DNA of 20,418 bases, from positions 1 through 20,418 of the IMG/VR virus record IMGVR_UViG_3300033552_000066; one strand, given 5' to 3'. This document shows, one piece after another, positions 2,954 through 19,676 of the stretch; the stretch's first letter is position 1; each line of letters starts with the position of its first letter. The notes beneath the pieces were generated by a model that saw only the letters and a list, made by a program, of their open reading frames with translations, was not told where the DNA came from and did not search any database. The position numbers and the translations under genes were made by a program. The stretch comes from a virus.

Positions 2954-3232
2954 TCAAAAAGGAATCGAGCTATCGTCCAGATCATCAAAGCCGCTGCCCG
3001 CTGGCGCTGGCTTGTTTGCCGGGCGGCTCGGTGCTGACTGCTGGCGCTCCTGTTTCGGCTTTACCGATAAGCTCATGAACTTGTTACCGTTCTGCGCCGT
3101 CTTCAGCCAACTACTGATCTCGTATTGCACGCCGTTAAGCATTAGGTCGCCGCGATAGTCTGGGCGGGCTTCATTGCCGCCTTTGTCATTTTTGAACAAT
3201 GCGCCGCTGCCGTCTTTTGGTTCGTATGCCAT
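2954..3232 (-). CDS. Small SSB-like phage protein
   Basis: A 92-residue protein with an N-terminal part MAYEPKDGSGALFKND and VQYEISSWLKTAQNGNKFMSL typical of a small phage beta-rich (OB-like) family, then a proline-rich linker, and an acidic tip FDDLDDSSIPF. Acidic tips ending in IPF are the protein-interaction signature of bacterial single-strand DNA-binding proteins. It starts directly after the stop of the annealing protein gene (TAAATG), so the two are probably made together and may act together on single-stranded DNA. It is shorter than ordinary SSB (about 150-180 residues), so the role is inferred. Confidence 0.75.
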   Translation of the reverse strand: MAYEPKDGSGALFKNDKGGNEARPDYRGDLMLNGVQYEISSWLKTAQNGNKFMSLSVKPKQERQQSAPSRPANKPAPAGSGFDDLDDSSIPF

Positions 3233-9022: not shown

Positions 9023-9387
9023 GCCTGATCGACATCCGGACCATGCGAATTAACCGCGTCAAACCGTCAAACCTTGTGTCGGTCGTCATTGGGCAAGCAC
9101 CTACCGCATGGAAGGGCGCAGCGGAGTTGATCGAGCTACCTCAGGGTTGCCAGCCGCGCTTGATGGATTGGAGGCCTGTTGTCGGGCTTTGGACAGCCTT
9201 TTACTTGGTCAAACCCGATTGGGCCGTGATGGACGCGGCGATTGATTGCGCCTCAAAAGCGGGCGCAAAGCTGTTCGGGTTTGTACACGCTGGACGGGCT
9301 TACTCGTTGGCTACTTTTGAAAAACCTGAAGACGAAACACGCGCAAATTATTTGATGTGTCTGGAATGGGAGGCTTTATGCAATTGA
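9019..9387 (+). CDS. Hypothetical protein between O-like and helicase genes
   Basis: A 122-residue protein: MSLIDIRTMRINRVKPSNLV, then a central LMDWRPVVGLWTAFYLVKPD and a C-terminal GRAYSLATFEKPEDETRANY. ATG overlaps the O-like stop, and its end overlaps the helicase start by 10 bases. Its place between an O-like protein and helicase suggests a replication accessory or helicase loader, which is inference; no AAA motif is present. No family recognised. Confidence 0.8.
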   Translation: MSLIDIRTMRINRVKPSNLVSVVIGQAPTAWKGAAELIELPQGCQPRLMDWRPVVGLWTAFYLVKPDWAVMDAAIDCASKAGAKLFGFVHAGRAYSLATFEKPEDETRANYLMCLEWEALCN

Positions 9388-10325
9388 TTACGCCCGATGA
9401 AATTGACTTTAGCTTTTACGAGCAGGTCACCGACCATCAACAAAAAGTTAAAAGCGCATCGCTTTATGTGCAGGCGCTGTTGGACCGGATGGCAAACCCG
9501 GTGCGCGAAAAAAAGGTTTTCATGCCTTGGTCAAAAACCCATGACCTGATTCAATTCCGACCCGGCGAGGTGACCGTATGGGGTGGTCCTAACGGTAGCG
9601 GTAAGAGCCTGGTTACGGGTCAAGTCGCTTTATCGCTTGCTGCGCAAGAAGAAAAGGTTTGCATCGCCAGCTTTGAAATGAAGCCAATCAAGACGATGGA
9701 GCGCATGGGTAGGCAGTGGACTGCTATGAGCCTGAATGACGAGTTTTTGATGTCAAACCCTGAGGCGCGCCGGATTTTGATTGATGAATACGAGCAATTC
9801 CGCGATTGGTCAGAAAACAAAATATGGCTCTATGACCAACAAGGGACCATTCAATGGAAACAGGTTTGCGCGGTCGCCAGGTATTGCGCCAAAGAGATTG
9901 GCGTCTCACACGTGTTTGTGGATAACTTGGGCAAGTGTGTATCTGGCGAGGATGACTTCAACGGGCAAAAAGCCTTTGTTGACGAACTTTGCTCGATTGC
10001 ACGCGACGCAAATATCCACATCCATTTGGTGCATCACATCAAAAAGCCAGCGACGGAAACCGCTAAGCCGACGAAGTACGACTTCAAAGGCACCGGCGCC
10101 ATTACTGACCAGCCGGACAACGTGATCGCGGTGTGGAGGAACAAGGAAAAAGAGCGCAAGTTACAGGACGGCAAGGCCGTTCCGACGACGGAGCCGGACA
10201 CCCTTTTGATCATCGACAAGCAGCGCAACGGCGAGGGATGGGAGGGAAACATCGGGCTTTGGTATCACCGGCCAAGCCAGCAGTTTCTAGAAGGCCACAA
10301 CGTTGACCCAATGGAGTTTTATTAA
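9378..10325 (+). CDS. DnaB/gp4-type replicative helicase
   Basis: A 315-residue RecA-fold helicase. Walker A GGPNGSGKS at 69-77, a following ASFEMKP (97-103), Walker B HVFVDN at 178-183, LVHH at 217-220 and KQRNGEGWEG at 281-290, where the arginine finger is expected. It lacks the N-terminal DnaB domain and any primase, so it is the core motor type of phage helicase; priming must come from host DnaG or another factor. Start 9378 has GGGAGG 4 bases upstream. Forms the fork motor with the O-like protein. Confidence 0.9.
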   Translation: MQLITPDEIDFSFYEQVTDHQQKVKSASLYVQALLDRMANPVREKKVFMPWSKTHDLIQFRPGEVTVWGGPNGSGKSLVTGQVALSLAAQEEKVCIASFEMKPIKTMERMGRQWTAMSLNDEFLMSNPEARRILIDEYEQFRDWSENKIWLYDQQGTIQWKQVCAVARYCAKEIGVSHVFVDNLGKCVSGEDDFNGQKAFVDELCSIARDANIHIHLVHHIKKPATETAKPTKYDFKGTGAITDQPDNVIAVWRNKEKERKLQDGKAVPTTEPDTLLIIDKQRNGEGWEGNIGLWYHRPSQQFLEGHNVDPMEFY

Positions 10326-10340
10326 TGTCCACCAACACAC

Positions 10341-10544
10341 ATGACCTGCATATCCTGCCAAAACTGGAAACTAAAAACCAGCAAGCTAGCGAAACACGGC
10401 CTAGCACCCTGCGCACATATGCCGAGTTGGGAGTATTTACCAGCAGCCGCAACTTGCCCCAAGCACCAACCGGCGCTGGATGCTGTGACGCGGGCCAGGG
10501 AGGTTTGGTTTGCGAGGCTGGATGCTGTGAAAGCGAGGGGGTGA
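10341..10544 (+). CDS. Small zinc-ribbon-like protein
   Basis: A 67-residue protein: MTCISCQNWKLKTSKLAKHG, PCAHMPSWEYLPAAATCPKH, ending FARLDAVKARG. Two Cys pairs (3/6; 24 and 41 region) suggest a small zinc fold common among phage early genes. No ribosome site is visible; the ATG is 16 bases after the helicase stop, so reinitiation is likely. A second frame (10325-10552) spans the same DNA with exact start and stop overlaps to both neighbours, but its product looks like a frame shadow. Confidence 0.65.
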   Translation: MTCISCQNWKLKTSKLAKHGLAPCAHMPSWEYLPAAATCPKHQPALDAVTRAREVWFARLDAVKARG

Positions 10545-10548
10545 AGGT

Positions 10549-10863
10549 ATGAATTGCAAACAAGGTGATTTGGCCGTGACTGTGGCGCTAAGCCATCAGA
10601 TCGGCGAGACAGCCAAAAGAAATTCAGGCAGGCTTGTCGAGGTCGTTAGATTCGTTGGGCGACATGAGTTTGGTTGCGGCAGGGTGGAGGTAGATGTTTG
10701 GTCGTGCGAGCTTTTGGGCGGGCCAGTAGTTGCCGCAAACGGTGTTTCTTGGCGCGGTCGGGTGTTTATTTGCGATGCAAACCTTCGCCCAATCCGCGAC
10801 ACCCCAGGCGAAGACGAAACTTTGCAATGGGCACCTTTGCCAAGCGAAAAGGTCGCAGCATGA
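10549..10863 (+). CDS. Hypothetical phage protein
   Basis: A 104-residue protein: MNCKQGDLAVTVALSHQIGE, GRLVEVVRFVG, VDVWSCELLGGPVVA, ending DETLQWAPLPSEKVAA. The pattern of beta strands around 'G-D-L-A' and 'LRPIRD' suggests a small SH3/KOW-like beta barrel, a guess from strand pattern only. Its stop overlaps the NinG start. Proteins of this look commonly stand before ninG in beta-/gammaproteobacterial phages. Confidence 0.82.
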   Translation: MNCKQGDLAVTVALSHQIGETAKRNSGRLVEVVRFVGRHEFGCGRVEVDVWSCELLGGPVVAANGVSWRGRVFICDANLRPIRDTPGEDETLQWAPLPSEKVAA

Positions 10864-11420
10864 GCAAGGTCTGCAAAACCTGCCGTACACGCTTTGACCC
10901 TGAATTACCGGGTGCGATTGTTTGTAGTGATAACTGCGCTGAATCGTTTGCAGTGGCTAAACGCGGCAAGGCTAAAAAGGTTGCAGCGGTGAAGGAGCGC
11001 AAAGCCGATGCAATCAAGCGCGAATCACAAAAGAATCCGTCGCAGTTAGAAGCGGAGTGCCGCACCATCGTCCAAAAGATCGCCCGCATCAGGGACAGGC
11101 GCGATGGTTGCATTTCTTGCCATATGCCAGCCGACTACACAGGACTCTGGCACGGCTCGCATTTTCGGCCAGCCGGGAATAACGCAGCCGTGCAGTTTCA
11201 CCTCTGGAATATCCATAAATCCTGCGCACAGTGCAACCTGTTCAAAGGCGGCAATCTGAGCGCCTACCGTCCGCGCCTGGTTGAAAAGATCGGCGCTGAC
11301 CGCGTGGAGTGGCTGGAGAGGCAGACCCAGGTAGTCAAGACAAGCAAGCCCTATTTGCTGCGCTTCAAGGTGGTTATGGGTAAGCGGTTACGCAGGATTG
11401 AGAAAAGGGCAAAAGCATGA
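10860..11420 (+). CDS. ninG: NinG recombination protein
   Basis: A 186-residue NinG (Rap) family protein. N-terminal zinc-binding part with C5, C8, C22, C26 (CKTCRTRF, CSDNC), a basic helical linker (33-60), and the core with C84/C87 (CISCHMPADYTGLWHGSHFR, H98, H101) and C122/C125 (HKSCAQCNLFKGGNLSAYR). Lambda NinG is a branched-DNA nuclease acting on Holliday junctions in phage recombination. ATG at 10860 overlaps the preceding stop. Here it would cooperate with the annealing protein of the left operon. Confidence 0.92.
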   Translation: MSKVCKTCRTRFDPELPGAIVCSDNCAESFAVAKRGKAKKVAAVKERKADAIKRESQKNPSQLEAECRTIVQKIARIRDRRDGCISCHMPADYTGLWHGSHFRPAGNNAAVQFHLWNIHKSCAQCNLFKGGNLSAYRPRLVEKIGADRVEWLERQTQVVKTSKPYLLRFKVVMGKRLRRIEKRAKA

Positions 11421-11620
11421 GCGCAAACGACACACAGGTAGCAGGCACGCACTACAAAGACAAAGCCATTCAGCCGTGGGATTTCATTTTGGCTAACGAC
11501 ATTGGCTACCTTGAGGGCAACGTCATCAAGTACGTCAGCCGCTGGAAGGATAAGGGCGGTGTGCAAGATTTGCTCAAAGCGCGGCACTACCTTGACAAAT
11601 TGATTGAGTCGCAAGCGTGA
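11417..11620 (+). CDS. DUF3310 family protein
   Basis: A 67-residue protein with the whole DUF3310 pattern: VAGTHYKDKAIQPWDFILAN, YLEGNVIKYVSRWKDKGG, LLKARHYLDKLIE. This short family is widespread in phages, sometimes called nucleotide-kinase-like; no biochemical role is firmly established. ATG overlaps the ninG stop and its TGA overlaps a GTG start downstream. Confidence 0.88.
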   Translation: MSANDTQVAGTHYKDKAIQPWDFILANDIGYLEGNVIKYVSRWKDKGGVQDLLKARHYLDKLIESQA

Positions 11621-11952
11621 GCGACGACCTACGCAACCCCGATGCCGCAGTTGATTTCATTATTTCCGTGTCCGGCAAATTCGCAGCCGCAAAAGCACAG
11701 CGCGTTTATTTGGAGGAATTCCGCAAGAGCAAAAAAGCGATCCTGATGGGTCAATCGCCCGCCAAGAGCGCCGTTGAGCGAGAGCAGTACGCATATGCCC
11801 ACGAAGACTATTTAGGGCTTCTGGGTGGCATTAAAGCAGCCGTTGAGATTGAGGAGGAATTGAAGTGGAAACTGATCGCCGCGCAACTCAGGGTGGAAAT
11901 CTGGCGATCAAAGGAGGCGAGCAACCGAGGGCAGGACCGGGCCACACGATGA
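11617..11952 (+). CDS. Conserved phage early protein, helical
   Basis: A 111-residue protein starting with GTG (GTGA overlap with the DUF3310 stop). Almost wholly helical: AAAKAQRVYLEEFRKSKKAI, VEREQYAYAHEDYLGLLGGI, LRVEIWRSKEASNRGQDRATR. I regard this as a familiar conserved family in phages of proteobacteria with no known function. The coiled-coil character suggests protein-protein contacts. Its end overlaps the next ATG. Confidence 0.82.
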   Translation: MSDDLRNPDAAVDFIISVSGKFAAAKAQRVYLEEFRKSKKAILMGQSPAKSAVEREQYAYAHEDYLGLLGGIKAAVEIEEELKWKLIAAQLRVEIWRSKEASNRGQDRATR

Positions 11953-12146
11953 CTAACCAGCAACCGCGAACGGTAGCGGACGAAATAGAGCTAACCCGTA
12001 CCGCTTTTGAAACGTGGGTACTGGACAACACGCAATGGAACCGGGCGATTGAACGCAACGGCGATATGTACCGCTTGGTCATCATTCAAAACAACTGGCA
12101 CGTTTGGCAAGCCGCCATTGCTTCACAACTGAATGAGCCACTATGA
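11949..12146 (+). CDS. Small hypothetical protein
   Basis: A 65-residue protein: ELTRTAFETWVLDNTQWNRA in the centre and NWHVWQAAIASQL near the end. The 'F-E-x-W ... W-x-x-W-Q-A-A' pattern is a common theme of tiny phage proteins of unknown role. ATGA overlaps on both sides. Confidence 0.8.
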   Translation: MTNQQPRTVADEIELTRTAFETWVLDNTQWNRAIERNGDMYRLVIIQNNWHVWQAAIASQLNEPL

Positions 12147-12286
12147 ATAAAACGCATATCACCAAGCTAAACGCCCAATTCGAGGCACAGGCAAAAAAGC
12201 TGGATTTGACCAATGACGGTCAGAGATACAAAAGCATCAGGACGGCGCGAGCTTGGACGAAGTTTCTGGCCCTTCACACCGTTTGA
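12143..12286 (+). CDS. 47-residue hypothetical protein
   Basis: MNKTHITKLNAQFEAQAKKL followed by DLTNDGQRYKSIRTARAWTK; basic and helical. Its ATG overlaps the previous stop. It ends 18 bases before the Q-like gene. Unknown function; overlap and composition support a real gene. Confidence 0.65.
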   Translation: MNKTHITKLNAQFEAQAKKLDLTNDGQRYKSIRTARAWTKFLALHTV

Positions 12287-12304
12287 GTCAATAAAGGGAA
12301 ATTC

Positions 12305-12685
12305 ATGATGCGCAATGACATTGACAACATTTTGGATTCACTTTTGACGGATTGGCATTGTTGGGCCAGCAACTTCAGGCACGTCTCCCAAAGCGGTAGT
12401 TGTGCAATGTTTACCGACGTTAAAAGCTCACGGCAATGGCAGGACGCCGACGAAGTGCTAGACAACGCAAAGCACAATTCGACCATGAAAGCGCTCGATT
12501 TCCACATTTCCGAGCTAGAGCCAAGCCACCGCACAGCTATCCAGATCAAAGCGCGCAACCTCTACACCGGCGTAAACGTATGGACAAGCGCAAGGCTACC
12601 GGCTGACCCTATGGAGCGCGCTGCAATACTTACGGCAGCTAAGAGCGCACTAATGACGAGATTAAGCGCGGCGGGGGTGATGTAA
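12305..12685 (+). CDS. Q-like candidate late regulator
   Basis: A 126-residue protein: IDNILDSLLTDWHCWASNFR, SSRQWQDADEV, STMKALDFHISELEPSHRTA, ARNLYTGVNVW, ALMTRLSAAGVM. The layout, with 'HISELEPSHRTAIQIKARN', recalls small phage proteins at the Q position, some of which are annotated as antitermination proteins of the Q or RinA kind. It is the last gene of the early operon, immediately before a new promoter, with terminators between there and the packaging genes, which fits an antiterminator role. AGGGAAA precedes the ATG at 12305; 12308 is an alternative. Confidence 0.72.
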   Translation: MMRNDIDNILDSLLTDWHCWASNFRHVSQSGSCAMFTDVKSSRQWQDADEVLDNAKHNSTMKALDFHISELEPSHRTAIQIKARNLYTGVNVWTSARLPADPMERAAILTAAKSALMTRLSAAGVM

Positions 12686-12709
12686 GGGTTTGTCCTGATT
12701 AAATAGTTG

Positions 12710-12737
12710 TTGACTGTTACGCGTAACGAGATAGAAT
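12710..12737 (+). promoter_or_regulatory. Promoter with palindromic operator after the Q-like gene
   Basis: TTGACT (12710-12715), a 16-bp spacer and TAGAAT (12732-12737). The spacer begins with GTTACGCGTAAC (12716-12727), a perfect 12-bp palindrome, so a dimeric regulator could control it. It lies 24 bp after the Q-like stop and 33 bp before the next ATG, the position of the lambda late promoter. Confidence 0.7.
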
Positions 12738-12770
12738 AGAGACATCAACAACACAACCAGGATAAACAAA

Positions 12771-12905
12771 ATGACCATCAATACCATCAAAATCAAGTTC
12801 CTCGGCAAAACCGCTGCTATGTATCGTGTCCTGAACTCTGCCGGTGAAGTTTTGCAAGTATTCGAAAGCAAGGCAGAAGCAGAGGCTTACATCAATGCAA
12901 TCTAA
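12771..12905 (+). CDS. 44-residue hypothetical protein
   Basis: Starts MTINTIKIKFLGKTAAMYRV and ends FESKAEAEAYINAI. The beta-rich start followed by 'F-x-S-K-A-E-A-E-A-Y-I' is a common small-protein pattern. AGGA precedes the ATG. First gene after the promoter at 12710. Unknown function. Confidence 0.72.
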   Translation: MTINTIKIKFLGKTAAMYRVLNSAGEVLQVFESKAEAEAYINAI

Positions 12906-13044
12906 CCAGACGGCGGCAGACAAAGAGGCCCGCCGAATGGTGCGGGTCGCTTTCGCAACGGGCGGCACCGTACCTTTTACGCTTGGGCGATTGATAGAGT
13001 TAAAAATATCAATTAAAGTTTTGCGGGCCGTTTATCGTGGCTGA
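12895..13044 (+). CDS. 49-residue hypothetical protein
   Basis: MQSNQTAADKEARRMVRVAF then TGGTVPFTLGRLIELKISIK. ATG 12895 lies inside the end of the previous gene, with GAGG 9 bases upstream. Its stop lies within the start of the next gene (GTG at 13037). Basic, possibly a small DNA-binding fold. Unknown function. Confidence 0.6.
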   Translation: MQSNQTAADKEARRMVRVAFATGGTVPFTLGRLIELKISIKVLRAVYRG

Positions 13045-13183
13045 CGCTAAGACAACAGCAGAGCGCCAGAAAGCGCTAAGAGCGCGCAGAGCGGCAGAAG
13101 GCAAGACGGAGGTGCGCGGTATCTATCTACCTCAAGCCAAGCACGCAGCATTAAAGAAAATTGCAAAGGAGCTACAAAAATGA
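13037..13183 (+). CDS. Ribbon-helix-helix candidate regulator
   Basis: A 48-residue protein starting with GTG: TTAERQKALRARRAAEGKTE, then VRGIYLPQAKHAALKKIAKE. A basic N-terminus, one short beta strand (VRGIYL) and a helix is the pattern of small ribbon-helix-helix repressors, also seen in phage proteins that begin 'TTAERQ-x-A-x-R-A-R-R'. Such dimers bind short palindromes, so the 12-bp palindrome in the promoter two genes upstream is a natural target (inference). Stop overlaps the next ATG. Confidence 0.68.
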   Translation: MADAKTTAERQKALRARRAAEGKTEVRGIYLPQAKHAALKKIAKELQK

Positions 13184-13602
13184 ATTCGATTTCAAAGGCG
13201 GTACAGCTAACCGCCGAGCAAGCGCAGCAAAAGCCGGTGGCGTGGCAGCATTTGAAAGAAACTGGTTACGCGATCACCAGCATTCCGCAAGTAGCCCGTA
13301 TTTGGCGTGACCAAGGAATGACTGTTGAGCCGCTTTACACAACACCCCGGCCAGCCTCAATAGAGTCAAGCCTGCGCAAAAAAGCGCTAGTGTCGCTGGA
13401 AGAGTACGAGCACGCACCAAGTCATGTCGGGCGCGAGCGCTGTGTTATTGAGGCTGTTGCTTACTTGAGCGGCTTAACCAATGCCCAGCCAGCACCCACA
13501 TGGCCAACTTCAGTAGCAGCGGAACTAGGTGTGACCAATCTCGCTGAGGCTGAAGCGCGTCAAGCTGGTTATGCCCCTTTGCCAGTACAGCCAAAGGAAT
13601 AA
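13180..13602 (+). CDS. Hypothetical phage protein
   Basis: A 140-residue protein: KPVAWQHLKETGYAITSIPQ near the start, then MTVEPLYTTPRP, and a helical part ALVSLEEYEHAPSHVGRERC. The 'PVAW...EPLYTTP' segment is a repeated theme in many phage proteins of unknown role. ATGA overlap with the RHH gene; no gene follows for almost 900 bases. Confidence 0.8.
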   Translation: MNSISKAVQLTAEQAQQKPVAWQHLKETGYAITSIPQVARIWRDQGMTVEPLYTTPRPASIESSLRKKALVSLEEYEHAPSHVGRERCVIEAVAYLSGLTNAQPAPTWPTSVAAELGVTNLAEAEARQAGYAPLPVQPKE

Positions 13603-13626
13603 AAGCAAAAAGATTTGCAAAATATA

Positions 13627-13656
13627 TTGCACAAGGCCAGTAAATAGGCGTAATAT
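13627..13656 (+). promoter_or_regulatory. Possible promoter for the gene-free region
   Basis: TTGCAC (13627-13632), 18-bp spacer, TAATAT (13651-13656). Nothing coding follows for over 800 bases on this strand, so if active it would make a non-coding RNA. Match is moderate. Confidence 0.4.
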
Positions 13657-13690
13657 GCGCGTGTGGGGCGTAAGCAATTGCAGAACCACA

Positions 13691-13765
13691 TTCAAAACGC
13701 ATGTTGATTGAATGTCTTAATGCTGGCTCTTGTCGTCCAGCCTTGTAGTCAACAGCCGCTTTGAT
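13691..13765 (+). repeat. 75-nt stem element A
   Basis: Left arm TTCAAAACGCATGTTGATT (13691-13709), right arm AGTCAACAGCCGCTTTGAT (13747-13765), loop 37 nt. The arms pair at 15 of 19 positions, plus one U-G, with a 2x2 internal loop (CA opposite GC). The loop holds an extra hairpin GCTGG/CCAGC (13722-13741). Its partner is at 14113-14187. Confidence 0.7.
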
Positions 13766-14112
13766 GGTTAAGCGAAACGGCAGGGCTAAATCCTGAAACG
13801 AACGCAGGATTGGGGGAACCCGGTCGCCATCAACCATGAAAGCAGGGTATAGCGCGTCAATTGCGACGCGCAGCCACAGCCAATCCGTCGAGAGCCCCAT
13901 GGTAGGCGGCGGACACCGTTTGATGCTCGGCCAGGGCGTAGGTGAAAGGGGCGCGCCTGGTAGCGACAGGGCCCTGCTTTGATGAATGCGCAGGCTGTTG
14001 CGCAAGGCTTAACGAACGGATGAATTTCCGCGTTTGGTTTGAACAGGCGTAGTCCTGGGAATCTTTGCAACTTAGCCAAGCAACAAAGCCGGAAATCAGC
14101 ACCGGCCATCAA

Positions 14113-14187
14113 ATCAAAACGCATGTTGATTACTGGTCTCGTCGTTACGAGGCCCTCCTTGCAAGGGTGGTCAGCAGCCGTTTTGAT
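14113..14187 (+). repeat. 75-nt stem element B
   Basis: Left arm ATCAAAACGCATGTTGATT (14113-14131), right arm GGTCAGCAGCCGTTTTGAT (14169-14187), loop 37 nt. All positions pair, counting U-G, except the same 2x2 internal loop as in element A. The loop is unrelated to that of A and contains CTCGT/ACGAG and the palindrome CCTTGCAAGG. Confidence 0.7.
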
Positions 14188-14258
14188 CGTCATGCCCTGC
14201 GAACTCCGGTAAGCAAAAGACATTTAGCGGTAAGGTACTCCGCAAGTCAAATTCATTC

Positions 14259-14291
14259 AAGCCGCCGATAGAAATGTCAGGCGGCTTTTTT
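14259..14291 (+). terminator. Intrinsic terminator before HNH gene
   Basis: AAGCCGCC (14259-14266) pairs with GGCGGCTT (14280-14287) across a 13-nt loop, followed by TTTTT. It ends the gene-free region and isolates the HNH gene from upstream transcription. Confidence 0.85.
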
Positions 14292-14489
14292 CGTTAAGCG
14301 GGCCGAATCAACAATCACAGCTACATGCTTAGATTCGCGTCCCGCACCTATTGCCGAGTCATCATGCAGTGTGGGCGCGAGCAGCGGAAGTGCTAGTGTT
14401 TATACAGTTGACGAGTTAAAATAGACGAGCCCGCAAAGTGCTGATACACGATGCAGGCTCTAACCAAACAACCTCTCTGAAAGGTCATC

Positions 14490-14981
14490 ATGGCTGCTGA
14501 AATTCTAACGTCATCTACACTTAGATCGCTTTTTTCTTATAACCAGGAAACAGGTCTCTTTATAAGGCTTATTGGTTGGCGTGCTCACAAAGCAGGTTCA
14601 ATCGCAGGCTACTTGGATATTGAGGGTTATGTCACTCTGAGCGTCAAGAACAAGAAATACAAAGCTCACCGCTTAGCATTTTTGCATGTTACTGGCCAGT
14701 GGCCGCTTGGCGAAGTTGACCATATCGACGGTGATCGGGCGAACAATACGTTGCGGAATCTGCGGGATGTGCCTCAACAATTGAATGCGCAGAATTTGCA
14801 TCGCGCTAGAAGCCACAACAAGCTAAAGATTTTAGGCGTCAGTCGCGATAAAAAACGCTTTTCTGCTCGCATCACAGTTAACGGCAAATTATCCACGCTG
14901 GGGTTTTTTGACACACCTGAAGAAGCGCACCAAGTCTACTTAGAGGCAAAGCGACGCTTACACCTAGGCTGCACCATATAA
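14490..14981 (+). CDS. HNH endonuclease with AP2-like domain
   Basis: A 163-residue free-standing HNH nuclease. Residues 60-95 have AHRLAFLHVTGQWPLGEVDH (His78 region) and IDGDRANNTLRNLRDV with Asn85/Asn90, the HNH_3-type metal centre; ILGVSRDKKRFSARITVNGK and FFDTPEEAHQVYLEAKRR (about 114-155) form the AP2-type DNA-binding domain. This domain pair is typical of mobile homing endonucleases in phages; nicking assistance to packaging is another known role of HNH proteins near terminase genes. GAAAGG precedes the ATG. It lies between two terminators, so it looks like a separately inserted unit. Confidence 0.9.
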   Translation: MAAEILTSSTLRSLFSYNQETGLFIRLIGWRAHKAGSIAGYLDIEGYVTLSVKNKKYKAHRLAFLHVTGQWPLGEVDHIDGDRANNTLRNLRDVPQQLNAQNLHRARSHNKLKILGVSRDKKRFSARITVNGKLSTLGFFDTPEEAHQVYLEAKRRLHLGCTI

Positions 14982-15012
14982 GCATCCCGATCATTCGTCG
15001 AGTGTGACGGCG

Positions 15013-15038
15013 AGCACGGCGGGTAATCCGTGCTTTTC
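15013..15038 (+). terminator. Intrinsic terminator after HNH gene
   Basis: AGCACGG (15013-15019) pairs with CCGTGCT (15028-15034) across an 8-nt loop, followed by TTTTC. It lies 31 bp after the HNH stop. Confidence 0.75.
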
Positions 15039-15128
15039 TCCTACGGCATCGCACCGATTACACGGCGGGAACGGTCTAACCCAGCGCCCAGGCGTAAACC
15101 CGATGGGTTTTGATTGAAAGTCTGTCAC

Positions 15129-15311
15129 ATGGATAAACCAACAGCCAAATGCAGTTGCCAAGACATGGCCGCGTTTTACAAATGCAAGTTTGGATGCAAG
15201 CCAGAGGACTCTGTGCAGTATTGCCGCAAAACCAATAACGAGCCGATCAAAGGCCCGCTACCCAATCGCCTACCAACAGGCGAGAAACCAACAACCACCA
15301 GCCCGCCTTAA
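15129..15311 (+). CDS. Small Cys-rich hypothetical protein
   Basis: A 60-residue protein: MDKPTAKCSCQDMAAFYKCK, FGCKPEDSVQYCRKTNNEPI, proline-rich tail. Five cysteines in the first 35 residues suggest a small zinc-binding or disulfide-rich fold. ATG 15129 is preferred over an upstream in-frame TTG at 15114; the ribosome site is weak. The stop codon lies within the loop of a terminator. Function unknown. Confidence 0.55.
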   Translation: MDKPTAKCSCQDMAAFYKCKFGCKPEDSVQYCRKTNNEPIKGPLPNRLPTGEKPTTTSPP

Positions 15312-15327
15312 ACCAGCGGGCTTTTTT
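15300..15327 (+). terminator. Intrinsic terminator before terminase genes
   Basis: AGCCCGC (15300-15306) pairs with GCGGGCT (15316-15322), 9-nt loop containing the stop of the previous gene, then TTTTTT. Transcripts reaching the packaging genes from upstream must read through it. Confidence 0.85.
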
Positions 15328-15375
15328 CATTGCGCGTACAGCGCGGATAAGCTGAATAAGCCCCAAGGAACGACT

Positions 15376-15795
15376 ATGGCAAGGCCAAGCGATTACACAG
15401 CCGCGCAAGCTGAAAACATATGCGAGCACATAGCAGGCGGGCGCAGTCTTGTTAGCTGGTGCGCAGTAGAAAGCCGTCCGTCTTACACGTCTGTCATGCG
15501 GTGGCTTCAGGCAAACCAGTCGTTTCGTGAGATGTACGCGTGCGCGAGGCAGGATCAAGCCGACTTCTTAGCTGAAGAGATTGTCCAGATTGCCGATGAT
15601 GGTTTGAATGACACATACGAAACAGAGGACGGCCCACGCACCAATCAGGACGTGATCGCCCGTTCGCGGTTAAGGGTTGATGCGCGCAAATGGTACGCAT
15701 CAAAGCTTGCGCCTAAAAAGTATGGCGACAAGGTTGAAACAACCCTCACAGGCGCGGTTGACCACAATCTGACGGTTAGCTTCGTTGGGCAATGA
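15376..15795 (+). CDS. Small terminase subunit, Sf6 gp1-like
   Basis: A 139-residue protein closely patterned on Sf6-type small terminase: RPSDYTAAQAENICEHIAGG (HTH start), SVMRWLQANQSFREMYACAR, EEIVQIADDG, RLRVDARKWYASKLAPKKYG. It recognises the pac site and activates the motor. The start 15376 has AAGGA 8 bases upstream; a longer frame runs to 15190 but covers the terminator. Stop overlaps the large subunit start. pac is often inside this gene in P22-like phages. Confidence 0.92.
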   Translation: MARPSDYTAAQAENICEHIAGGRSLVSWCAVESRPSYTSVMRWLQANQSFREMYACARQDQADFLAEEIVQIADDGLNDTYETEDGPRTNQDVIARSRLRVDARKWYASKLAPKKYGDKVETTLTGAVDHNLTVSFVGQ

Positions 15796-17039
15796 AGGTC
15801 GAACTTCCCGCAAAGCTGGCCCCACTGTTCCAGCCAAACCGCCTGAAGGTGGCGCATGGTGGCCGTGGCAGTGCGAAATCTTGGGGTTATGCCCGCGCTT
15901 TACTCATCGAGGCTGCGCAAAAGCCGCTTCGTGTGCTTTGCGCCAGGGAGATACAGAAATCAATCAAGGACTCGGTACACCGCCTGTTGAGTGACCAGAT
16001 TCAGGCTATGGGCCTGGGTCATATGTATGAGGTGCTGGATAGTGAAATCCGTTGCAAGAACGGCAGCTTGTTTCTGTTTGCAGGCTTGGCACAGCACACC
16101 GTTGAGTCGATCAAGTCATTCGAGGGTGTTGATAGGGTTTGGGTTGAAGAGGCGCAGACTGTTACTAAACGATCATGGGACGTGCTAACGCCGACCATTC
16201 GTAAGGACGGCTCTGAGGTTTGGATCACACTCAATCCCGATATGGAAACCGACGAAACCTATCAGCGGTTTGTCGTCAAAGCCCCGGCTGATGCGTTTGT
16301 AGTTCAAATGAACTGGCGTGATAACCCGTGGTGGCCCGCAGTGTTGGAGAAGGAGCGCCAGGAGACGCAGCGCCGCGACCCTGACAACTACGCGAACATT
16401 TGGGAGGGCGAGCCTAAACGGGTGTCTGAAGGCGCTATTTACCGCTTTGAGATCGAACGGCTGTACGCAGAAAAGCGCGTGCGTCCTGTGCCGTATGACC
16501 CGCTGTTAGCTGTTCATACCGTGTGGGATTTGGGCTGGAACGACAGCATGTGCATCGGCTTCTTTCAACGCTCCGGCGCTGAGATTCGTTGTATTGACTA
16601 CATCGAAGACAGCCACCGCACGCTTGATTATTACGTCGCAGAGATCGAGAAAAGGCCGTGGCGATGGGGTAGCGACTTTATTCCGCATGACGGGCGGGCG
16701 CGTGATTTCAAGACAGGCAAAAGCACCGAAGAACACCTGCAAGCAATGGGCCGTAAGCCTGTTGTATTGCCGATTGACAGCATTGAAGAGGGCATTAAGG
16801 CCGCTCGCTTGATGTTCCCGCGTGTTTACTTTGACGACACCAAGACCGCCGACTTGCTGGAGCATTTGAAGCGGTATCAACGCTCGATAAACCAGCGAAC
16901 CAGCGAAGCAGGTGCACCGCTACACGACGAACACTCGCATGGTGCTGATTGCTTTAGGTACGCAGCTATGGCTGTTGACCAGATGGGCAACGCAGGCCCA
17001 CAGAAACCAATTGAATACACAAGGAAACGCCTAGCATGA
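15792..17039 (+). CDS. Large terminase subunit
   Basis: A 415-residue packaging motor and nuclease of the Terminase_3 (PBSX/Sf6 gp2) type. ATPase: Walker A GGRGSAKS at 23-30, Walker B VWVEE at 116-120, coupling segment TLNPD at 146-150. Nuclease: acidic residues D246 (WDLGWND), D300 (IPHDGRARD) and D386 (HGADCFRYA). It cuts concatemers, probably by headful packaging given its relatives, and pumps DNA through the portal. ATG overlaps the small subunit stop. Confidence 0.95.
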   Translation: MKVELPAKLAPLFQPNRLKVAHGGRGSAKSWGYARALLIEAAQKPLRVLCAREIQKSIKDSVHRLLSDQIQAMGLGHMYEVLDSEIRCKNGSLFLFAGLAQHTVESIKSFEGVDRVWVEEAQTVTKRSWDVLTPTIRKDGSEVWITLNPDMETDETYQRFVVKAPADAFVVQMNWRDNPWWPAVLEKERQETQRRDPDNYANIWEGEPKRVSEGAIYRFEIERLYAEKRVRPVPYDPLLAVHTVWDLGWNDSMCIGFFQRSGAEIRCIDYIEDSHRTLDYYVAEIEKRPWRWGSDFIPHDGRARDFKTGKSTEEHLQAMGRKPVVLPIDSIEEGIKAARLMFPRVYFDDTKTADLLEHLKRYQRSINQRTSEAGAPLHDEHSHGADCFRYAAMAVDQMGNAGPQKPIEYTRKRLA

Positions 17040-17179
17040 CAAAAGAACAACTGATCGAAGCCCTAAAGATGCTGGGCCGTGGCCGTATCGACGCTGCTGA
17101 ATTGATTGCAGATCACTTGATGCCAGCGCCCAAGACCATCGCGGTTGAAGTGCCTAGCGCGCCTAAAAAGGGCAAGTAA
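17036..17179 (+). CDS. 47-residue hypothetical protein
   Basis: MTKEQLIEALKMLGRGRIDA then AELIADHLMPAPKTIAVEVP, basic tail SAPKKGK. A short helical hairpin followed by a proline-rich tail. ATGA overlap with large terminase and TAATG with the next gene. Its place between terminase and portal suggests a packaging or head accessory, not shown. Confidence 0.75.
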   Translation: MTKEQLIEALKMLGRGRIDAAELIADHLMPAPKTIAVEVPSAPKKGK

Positions 17180-17373
17180 TGCGCCAGCTTTACCTCTCAT
17201 TGTGTATGCGTATCGGAGTCTGGGCGATGGGCCAAAAGTACGCAGCCATTCGCAATGAAGCAGACGCACGATTTGCCACTATGCATGAGATGCGCCACCA
17301 GATTCAGGAATTGACCCGACAGCGGGACACCTGGAAGCTGCGCGAAAGCGTTAACAGGATGAAGGCGCAGTAA
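17179..17373 (+). CDS. 64-residue hypothetical protein
   Basis: MRQLYLSLCMRIGVWAMGQK then a helical, charged part RHQIQELTRQRDTWKLRESV. A short hydrophobic start and a likely coiled coil give it an Rz-like or membrane-anchored look, but it is too short to assign. TAATG overlaps both neighbours (17177-17181 and 17371-17375). Confidence 0.72.
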   Translation: MRQLYLSLCMRIGVWAMGQKYAAIRNEADARFATMHEMRHQIQELTRQRDTWKLRESVNRMKAQ

Positions 17374-19676
17374 TGGCAAAAATGACCGACGACCAATTAC
17401 TTAGCCACTGCCAAACGCTCGAAGAGGACAGCGCCGCGTTTACCTGGGGTCGCCTAGGTACTGAGCGTGAGACGGCAATGAAGGAGTACTTTCGCCAGCC
17501 GTACGGCACGGAAGAAGAAGGCTGGTCGTCTATCGTCACGTCTGAGGTGCAGGATACGGTTGAGTGGATATTGCCGAGCCTGCTGAAGATATTCACCTCT
17601 ACGGACCAAGCGGTTAGCTTTGAGCCAAGCAAGCAAGAGGACGTAAAAGCAGCCGAGCAAGCTACAGACACCTGCAATTACGTTTTCTACAAGTCAAACC
17701 CCGGCTTTCTGACGCTTTACACCGCGTTTAAGGACGCTTTGCTGGTGAAGAACTGCGCCGTGATGTGGCGTAAGGAAACCAAGCGCACGAAGGACGTGAC
17801 GCCAGTGCAGGGCGCAACGGCTGAGATGCTCACGATGTTGCTGCAAGAGGCCGGTGAGGATGCTGAGATTGAGGCCGCGACACCGCTTAAACCGCAGCCG
17901 ATAGCAGGGCCTGACGGTCGGCCGATGATCGACCCGTACACCGGCCAGCCTGTGCTTGGGCCTGAGTTGTACAACGCTCGCATTTGCAGCTACAAAGACA
18001 AGACGACGATCAAGGTAGAGGCTTTCCCGCCTGAAGACTTGCTCGTTAAACGTGATTGGACAACACCGTTGCTGGACGATTGCCCATACGTGGCACGCAA
18101 TATGCGCGTAACGCTGTCCGACCTTGCTGAAATGGGTTTCAAAGGCGTGACGGTTGAGGATTTGGACAGTTCCGACGATGCGGGTATGAGTGCTGATGCG
18201 TCATTCCGGCAGAACCGCGCTAACAGTAGCAGTGAGGTTTTCGGTGGCAAGCAGTTGCAGGAATCCGATGACGACAGCCTGACCGAAGGTTACCTGCGGA
18301 TCGAGTTCGTATTAGTTGACTATGACGGCGACGGCATTGCAGAACGTCGTTGTGTGTACCGCCTTAAAGACAAGATTTTGAGCAATGAGGAATGTGCGCA
18401 GGTTCCTATCGCTACAGCTTCGCCAATCCTGATTGCGCATCGCTGGGACGGCATGAGCGTAGCCGAGACTGTCAGCGACCTGCAGCAGCTCAAGACCGAG
18501 CTAACGCGCCAAATGGTTAACAGTGCGTACCTTGCTAACAACCCGCGCACCGAAGTATTAACCGACAGCAATAACGCACCGTTTGCCAACATTGATGATT
18601 TGCTGGACAGCCGACCCGGTGGCATCCTGCGCAAGTCGCGGCCTGATGCACTAAGCCAGAACATCGTCCCGTTTGTCGGCGGTCAGATGCTGCCATTGCT
18701 GGGCTATGTGGACGAAATGGGCGCAAAGCGTACCGGCGTTTCACCTTCGACGCAGATGGATCAAAACGTCCTGAGAAACGACCGCACAGCAGTAGAGGTA
18801 CAGCAGACCGCTAACGCCGCTGCAGCACGTATTGACCTGATAGCCCGTATCTTTGCCGAGACGCTGCTTAAGCCGATATTCAAGGGCATTCTGTGCCTTT
18901 TGACAGACGGCGAGATGGAAAAGGTGGCGTTTCGTCTTCGTAATGAGTTTGTGGAATACGACCCGAACGAGTGGCGCGATAACTACGACATGACGATCAA
19001 TGTCGGTCTTGGAACGGGTGATAAGGCACAGCAGCAAGTCGCACTACAAACCATATTCCAGAACCAGATGGCGTTATCACAGTCACCGTTTGGCCCGTTG
19101 CTGGTGCAACCGAAGTCGATATACAACACACAAGCGAAATTGGTTGAAAACGCAGGCTTTAAAAATGTTGCTGATTTCTTCGGAGACCCCAAAGACCAGC
19201 AAGTTCAACCGCAACAGCCACCGCCTGATCCTGCTGTGCAGATTGCACAAATGAAGCTACAAGCTGAGGCACAAAAGTTCCAGGCCGAATCAGGCCAGAA
19301 CATGCAAATGGAGCAGCTTAAGGCCAGCGCCAAATTGCAGGAAGTGCAGGCTAATCTTGAACTGCAGGCGTCCAACGATCAGCGCGACAGCGAGCGCGAG
19401 ATGATGACAGCGCAGCACAAGCGCGAACTGGCTGACCTGCAATTGCAGCTTGACCGCTACAAGGTAGACGCCGACAACTCGACACGCATCACGGTTGCAC
19501 AAATTGCACACCCGATTGAAGACCCGAACGATTACGACCCTGAAACCGGCGAAGCAGTGCAAAAGCCTGACCCGATGGCTGCGATTACGCAAGCCCTGGC
19601 AATGCTGGCCGACGCGCAAAGCAGGCCCAAACAGATCGTTCGTGATGCCGCTGGCCGCGTGGTCGGCGTGCAGTAA
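17373..19676 (+). CDS. Portal protein, P22/Sf6-like
   Basis: A 767-residue portal, close in size to P22 gp1 (725) and Sf6 gp3 (about 708). Features: EEGWSSIVTSEVQDTVEWIL near 48-67, SPILIAHRWDGMSVAETVSD near 350-369, LTRQMVNSAYLANNPRTEVL, then RTGVSPSTQMDQNVLRNDRT; the last ~150 residues (QMKLQAEAQKFQAESGQNMQ onward) are a Gln/Ala-rich coiled coil, likely the barrel-like C-terminal part inside the head. Forms the dodecameric ring at one head vertex and contacts the large terminase. Start overlaps the previous stop. Confidence 0.93.
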   Translation: MAKMTDDQLLSHCQTLEEDSAAFTWGRLGTERETAMKEYFRQPYGTEEEGWSSIVTSEVQDTVEWILPSLLKIFTSTDQAVSFEPSKQEDVKAAEQATDTCNYVFYKSNPGFLTLYTAFKDALLVKNCAVMWRKETKRTKDVTPVQGATAEMLTMLLQEAGEDAEIEAATPLKPQPIAGPDGRPMIDPYTGQPVLGPELYNARICSYKDKTTIKVEAFPPEDLLVKRDWTTPLLDDCPYVARNMRVTLSDLAEMGFKGVTVEDLDSSDDAGMSADASFRQNRANSSSEVFGGKQLQESDDDSLTEGYLRIEFVLVDYDGDGIAERRCVYRLKDKILSNEECAQVPIATASPILIAHRWDGMSVAETVSDLQQLKTELTRQMVNSAYLANNPRTEVLTDSNNAPFANIDDLLDSRPGGILRKSRPDALSQNIVPFVGGQMLPLLGYVDEMGAKRTGVSPSTQMDQNVLRNDRTAVEVQQTANAAAARIDLIARIFAETLLKPIFKGILCLLTDGEMEKVAFRLRNEFVEYDPNEWRDNYDMTINVGLGTGDKAQQQVALQTIFQNQMALSQSPFGPLLVQPKSIYNTQAKLVENAGFKNVADFFGDPKDQQVQPQQPPPDPAVQIAQMKLQAEAQKFQAESGQNMQMEQLKASAKLQEVQANLELQASNDQRDSEREMMTAQHKRELADLQLQLDRYKVDADNSTRITVAQIAHPIEDPNDYDPETGEAVQKPDPMAAITQALAMLADAQSRPKQIVRDAAGRVVGVQ

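Follow-up and report, generated by a model that had tools for sequence, protein, structure and literature searches.

Reusable RNA frames with exchangeable cargos as a reading of modular leader RNAs and tRNA islands in phages

Our best reading of the locus described here is that phages carry, in leader RNAs and in tRNA islands, what appear to be reusable RNA frames with exchangeable cargos. Comparative alignment, drawn like all the evidence given here from sequence, shows a structured RNA that is under selection for pairing, modular and exchangeable. The starting point was a stretch of virus DNA of 20,418 nt (IMG/VR record IMGVR_UViG_3300033552_000066), which as a whole is called the window in what follows. 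Two elements in it turned out to be copies of one frame within a chain of six modules, and a second frame in the same chain belongs to a much larger family distributed among coliphages, Klebsiella phages and prophages.

Frame B in the window and its relatives

The two elements lie at positions 13691-13765 and 14113-14187, each 75 nt long with a 37-nt loop. An earlier note on this DNA had described them as having near-identical pairing arms, and they are real. The left arm, TCAAAACGCATGTTGATT, is 18 nt long with the same letters in both elements, and it is absent from the rest of the window even at 3 mismatches (0.05 chance matches expected). On the + strand, the folding signal is moderate for element 1 (z -2.5) and strong for element 2 (z -5.5); the inner helix is paired at 8/8 positions in both, and the outermost pair is missing in element 1. 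The 2x2 internal loop (CA/GC) that the note had seen as kept is present in both elements. Its statement that differences between the right arms keep pairing through U-G on the + strand holds for two of them; the CGCTTTG variant of element 1 gives A-C on that strand and would pair solely on the - strand.

A search seeded with the arms and the leader, from which related phage contigs were fetched (L-numbers denote loci), gave 20 instances of this frame, called frame B, in 16 phage contigs; the frame is additionally found in one Polaromonas chromosome (L288). In a scan on CAAAACGCA and GCCGTTTTG alone, members had 6-8 of the 8 inner pairs and nearly all other matches had 5 or fewer. The alignment contains 14 distinct frames, with seven loci that have the same arms kept as one row, and its counts are therefore not inflated by copies. 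In total 96.7% of its cells are paired and 20 are compensatory, a result as good as which was obtained in 0 of 500 shuffles; slid controls left less than 50% of the cells paired. Seven pairs have changed on both sides. Compensatory inner helices include TGTTGATT/AGTCAACA, GGCTGATT/AGTCAGCC, GGATTATT/AGTAATCC, TGCGGCTT/AGGCCGCA and TGGGCATC/GGTGCCCA, there is one compensatory outer change (CAACACG/CGTGTTG), and the CA/GC internal loop is invariant across instances. This covariation gives good support to a predicted structure in which two helices are stacked and the CA/GC internal loop does not vary.

The cargos held by these arms are unrelated in sequence and mostly self-folding. Their lengths range from 28 to 87 nt (22 members) and are equal in 2 of 231 pairs, so a constant loop of 37 nt is not a trait of the family and the equal loops in the window are a coincidence. 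Free variation of loop length, which the earlier note had listed as evidence against its proposal, removes the length claim only, because the arm changes are compensatory. The proposal itself, that the RNA frame is fixed and its cargo varies, is supported by relatives in which the arms are retained, the inner helix covaries and the cargos differ: the arms in related phages, their covariation and copies with different loops, all of which that note had suggested looking for, were found. It is plausible that the loop, or cargo, is the specificity determinant.

Among 95 bacterial contigs with the left arm, the partner arm was present only in L288, and the contigs inspected mostly contained one conserved gene that happens to include the 17-mer. 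Four matches to the frame-B pattern in 401 Polaromonas-family genomes look like chance, a control pattern being about as frequent. Matches to the bare right-arm pattern and to GCGGTAAGGTACTCCGC, mostly chance occurrences in coding genes, were dropped on context. When the single-frame loci L002 and L003 were compared with phages by BLAST, nothing matched because the cargos share no sequence, and no match came from the plasmid search or from a search of bacterial genomes with the leader pattern.

The RNA locus and its gene neighbours

Positions 13659-14291 (+ strand) apparently constitute a non-coding RNA gene, which reads as a leader hairpin, six modules and a terminator. The modules, B1, C1, C2, D, B2 and E, stand end to end, each with its own closing stem, and a 698-nt region folds as a whole far better than shuffles (z -5.7). 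All the parts that follow lie on the + strand. The 5′ leader hairpin, TGTGGggcgtaagcaattgcagaaCCACA (13659-13690), has a core that is exact in L002, L003, L008 and L009. B1 (13691-13765) and B2 (14113-14187) are the elements described above. Module C1 (13761-13833) is closed by the stem TTGATGG/CCATCAA, with 8 closing positions, and folds with z -3.6 against mononucleotide shuffles, and module C2 (13839-13980) is closed by AAAGCAGGG/CCCTGCTTT, with 10 closing pairs; no relatives of either were found, and the division of the RNA between them was drawn from thermodynamics and closing stems alone. Module D (13978-14113) is a frame D with an 82-nt cargo, written GATGAATGCGC-AGGCTGTT-GCGC ... GCCGG-AAATCAGCA-CCGGC-CATC. 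Module E (14182-14252; GTCATGCC..GCGGTAAGGTACTCCGCA) has the outer stem TTTGA/TCAAA and, folded alone, is thermodynamically not significant. A core that is 79% identical recurs on the 5′ side of tRNA-Arg in Pseudomonas phage nickie, and also in L028; each copy has a perfect outer stem, which is different and unrelated in sequence. The chain ends in an intrinsic terminator (14259-14291; G+C-rich hairpin plus T6, -17.4 kcal/mol) that is kept in relatives.

Upstream of the hairpin, a promoter-like segment (13626-13658, +) contains a weak -35, TTGCAC, and a TAATAT -10 located some 35 nt ahead of the first frame; promoter scans picked no significant promoter in the window. A sigma-70-type promoter 3′ of the gene in the Q position is good in relatives, reading TTGACA-16-TAATAT in L003 and L009 and TTGACA-16-CAGAAT in L156 and L157, with the same distance to the frame as in the window. 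From these we infer promoter activity in the window, where the -35 is weak. As in a lambda-type leader, an intrinsic terminator lies between the promoter-like segment and the late genes.

The genes around the locus follow a lambdoid map. Replication genes and a NinG gene are followed by a gene for a 126-aa protein in the Q position (12305-12685, +), which is conserved upstream of the arrays and has homologues in L002, L003, L008, L151, L156, L159, L163 and L165 and in Comamonadaceae genomes. The protein has no Pfam match and falls in no known Q family of Pfam, NCBIfam or PHROGs; its AlphaFold model (pLDDT 77) has a weak likeness to sigma region 4 (3hug, E 0.8). It might be a new type of late antiterminator, for which we regard it as a candidate. 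Downstream come an HNH endonuclease (14490-14981, +), the small and large terminase subunits (15190-17039, +) and a portal gene, as context. In 12 loci where a terminase could be recognised, the array precedes this gene on the same strand, and the terminase families differ. Between the terminator and the HNH gene, a conserved segment (14295-14386, +) with GCGGG...CCCGC dyads is 93% identical to L003 despite the different terminase families, and is possibly a cos or late-operon control site. In L002, a contig of a window-related phage, positions 3089-3211 of the - strand match Rfam RF02932 (Betaproteobacteria-1 RNA) with 78 bits.

Frame D and the distribution of modules

The number of modules at this site varies from phage to phage. 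In L008 the leader hairpin is followed directly by a terminator, and L322, reached via the Q-position protein, has that gene, a TTGACA-17-TAATAT promoter, a hairpin and a terminator, again with zero modules. L003, L009, L002 and L317 contain B plus at least one other module, L165 and L168 two tandem B frames plus more, and the window six modules. One site is thus empty in some phages and filled in others, with up to six modules.

The region between the two reported elements of the window matches P22-like, Klebsiella and other phages. It contains frame D, which is far commoner than frame B: 57 distinct frames were collected from coliphages, Klebsiella phages and prophages. Its parts come in the order closing stem, GCGC hairpin (loop AGGCUGAU), cargo, GCCGG hairpin (loop AGAUCAGCA) and closing stem, and the cargos, 24-152 nt long, form 39 clusters. 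The closing stem covaries strongly: 245 of its 285 cells are paired, whereas no more than 177 were reached in 1000 shuffles. An alignment of distinct frames only is 93.8% paired, with 47 compensatory cells (0 of 500 shuffles). Several D frames come from related coliphages, and their cells therefore do not count as independent. Complementarity between the loops GCUGAU and AUCAGC is present in at least 49 of 57 frames at every position, which suggests a kissing contact. This helix is nearly invariant and covariation is therefore no test of it. Sampling of frame D began from a single 15-mer, matched exactly, and the invariance of the frame in that stretch is thus partly built in.

Cargos also move between frames. 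The same cargo stands within different closing stems in L006/L047, L037/L117 and L068/L171, which is direct evidence of exchange, and cargos are conserved across distant phages, as in a cluster of 7. A 261-nt query from the SCNJ1-C array, covering several modules, matched 336 phage records.

The modules occupy several kinds of site. HK633 has a D array in the late leader, after PR′ and before the holin gene; P22-like and Pseudomonas aeruginosa phages have D frames in the repressor-to-N interval, and the N4-like phage IME11 in a 2-kb gene-less gap. In SCNJ1-C a D frame stands 5′ of a tRNA gene, and another module of that array recurs, with a similar cargo, between tRNA genes of ESCO13. Modules lie among or adjoin tRNA genes in ESCO13, SCNJ1-C, nickie and IME11. 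A true tRNA-Thr adjoins a B array in L201, and a tRNA-like 3′ module (GATAGTGGAAAGC...GGTTCGACACCGTGCC) with different closing stems is present in L003, L009, L187 and L327.

Some further observations concern the same tRNA regions. In nickie (L004:1100-1360), two more stem-closed segments upstream of tRNA-Arg, AGGTCTGAACCAT...ATGGTTCAGACCT and AGGCCCTTCTG...CAGAAGGGC, resemble additional module types. Among the ten tRNA genes of ESCO13 (L172:1700-4200), several gaps contain unannotated long stem-closed segments, for example around 3005-3086. In IME11 (L170:4721-4878), two odd tRNA genes adjoin modules: in one the anticodon is not readable, and the other is a tRNA-Ile (AAT).

Possible roles of the cargos and comparison with known systems

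What might the cargos do? The account we favour, to which we give somewhat less than an even chance, takes the window elements as frame copies in the modular leader RNA of a temperate-type phage and the cargo as a trans-acting payload. A promoter 3′ of the Q-like gene would make an RNA composed of a leader hairpin, zero to about six stem-closed cassettes and, ahead of the terminase operon, an intrinsic terminator. A cassette would be a conserved frame plus a hypervariable, mostly self-folding cargo, and cassettes and cargos would be swapped among phages. The RNA would be made, abundant and stable, and cargos might act as decoys or sponges for host RNA-binding factors, some of them mimicking tRNA T-arms. 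Diversification of cargos could be driven by an arms race, and the frame might serve folding and protection. A T-arm motif occurs in 5 of 60 non-redundant cargos (0.08 in shuffles); together with the neighbouring tRNA genes, this suggests that some cargos imitate tRNAs, though most do not. The broader proposition, a shared pool of RNA cassettes in early and late leaders and in tRNA islands in which each cargo disarms or titrates a host factor, is a tentative one that we hold with more doubt than belief.

The main rival is a cis-acting role, in which RNA polymerase or Rho would be the target of the frames, in the manner of HK022 put or nut-type elements, allowing transcription through long untranslated leaders and tRNA operons, and the cargo is tolerated filler. 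It would fit the locations, namely antitermination-controlled leaders (late in the window and HK633, and repressor-to-N) and untranslated tRNA operons, as well as the fact that the frame is the conserved part. It fits less well the empty sites, since relatives with zero modules keep promoter, hairpin and terminator and the modules are thus dispensable, and the conservation of cargos between distant phages (the cluster of 7), which is unexpected for filler; also, one site is occupied by different frames. On balance we consider it unlikely. Still less probable are selfish or recombinational cassettes whose arms provide homology for phage recombinases at no benefit to the phage. The boundary bases common to the tandem frames of L165 and L168, the same cargo in different stems and the identical arms around unrelated cargos in the window would all agree with such cassettes, but compensatory changes indicate that RNA pairing, not sequence homology alone, is selected, and closing stems that differ among phages remove the homology. 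Nor is the DNA recombination element considered in the earlier note supported, the strongest signal being RNA-type covariation within a promoter-leader-terminator unit.

We find it very improbable that the modules are a degenerate island in which tRNA genes and spacers have decayed. The T-arm motifs of some cargos, the odd tRNAs of IME11 and the tRNA-Thr by the B array of L201 point that way, but decay would yield neither covariation in closing stems nor strict retention of the CA/GC loop, tRNA features are missing from most cargos, and ARAGORN found no tRNA in the window, nor in most frame-B loci. A protein encoded on the minus strand, conserved at its ends (TIK, INMRF) and variable between them, raised earlier because minus frames are open across both window copies, has a negligible chance of being right, as cargo lengths are spread evenly over the three frames (7/7/8), L002 has stops in all three, the open frame differs among instances and conservation tracks pairing.

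If frames with exchangeable payloads are the correct reading, they would be the RNA equivalent of the 'moron' or anti-defence islands that encode proteins, with tRNA-directed defences among the targets. Hundreds of phages, well-known coliphages and prophages among them, appear to hold covariation-supported RNA families that are blank in genome annotation and absent from Rfam. Because a fixed frame with hypervariable cargo usually means an arms race or recognition, these families offer a defined set of RNAs for testing in host takeover and counter-defence in ordinary laboratory phages of E. coli K-12, carriers such as SandraMuster_Bas78 and HK633 among them, and also natural frames able to accept RNA inserts of widely differing kinds.

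The frames are undescribed in Rfam 15 and in the literature searched. Rfam 15, at gathering and relaxed thresholds, gave only weak sub-threshold matches for the window and a frame-D example and just two ordinary tRNAs for seven related loci; the literature search, which included sequence strings and had most subscription papers outside its coverage, found no description. Two known systems were considered and rejected: integron attC sites, because GTTGATT of the arms GTTGATT/AGTCAAC misfits GTTRRRY and the inner helix varies among members, and retrons or DGRs, ten ORFs (9357-19676) having no reverse transcriptase match. Frame D resembles a tRNA in that its closing stem, together with two hairpins whose loops are complementary, recalls the acceptor, D and T arms; unlike a tRNA, it has no CCA or anticodon arm, and a 6-nt loop-loop complement replaces the T-loop motif. 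The location is compatible with an antitermination RNA like HK022 put.

The layout, in which a promoter (in the window a putative one), a short leader and a terminator separate the Q position from the late genes, is like that of the lambda late leader (PR′ to tR′, the '6S' RNA) with Q. The lambda leader is about 194 nt long and is not known to contain cassettes, and the Q-position protein here matches no known Q family in the three databases named above. Late-region prophage sRNAs such as PasA-D, STnc100, AgvB and AsxR are also small, structured and near Q, lysis or tRNA genes, and some target host regulatory RNAs (PMC13192938); each of these is a single sRNA that works by base pairing, and several have Rfam models, none of which matches here. 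GOLLD and ROOL (RF01998, RF03087), whose function is not known, are ornate non-coding RNAs of large size that phages and prophages encode, often close to tRNA islands; they have kissing loops and combine conserved regions with variable ones (PMC12286853). Their covariance models have no match to the window and, unlike them, the RNA described here consists of individual cassettes in a row, whose cargos are exchangeable and whose number and kind vary from zero up.
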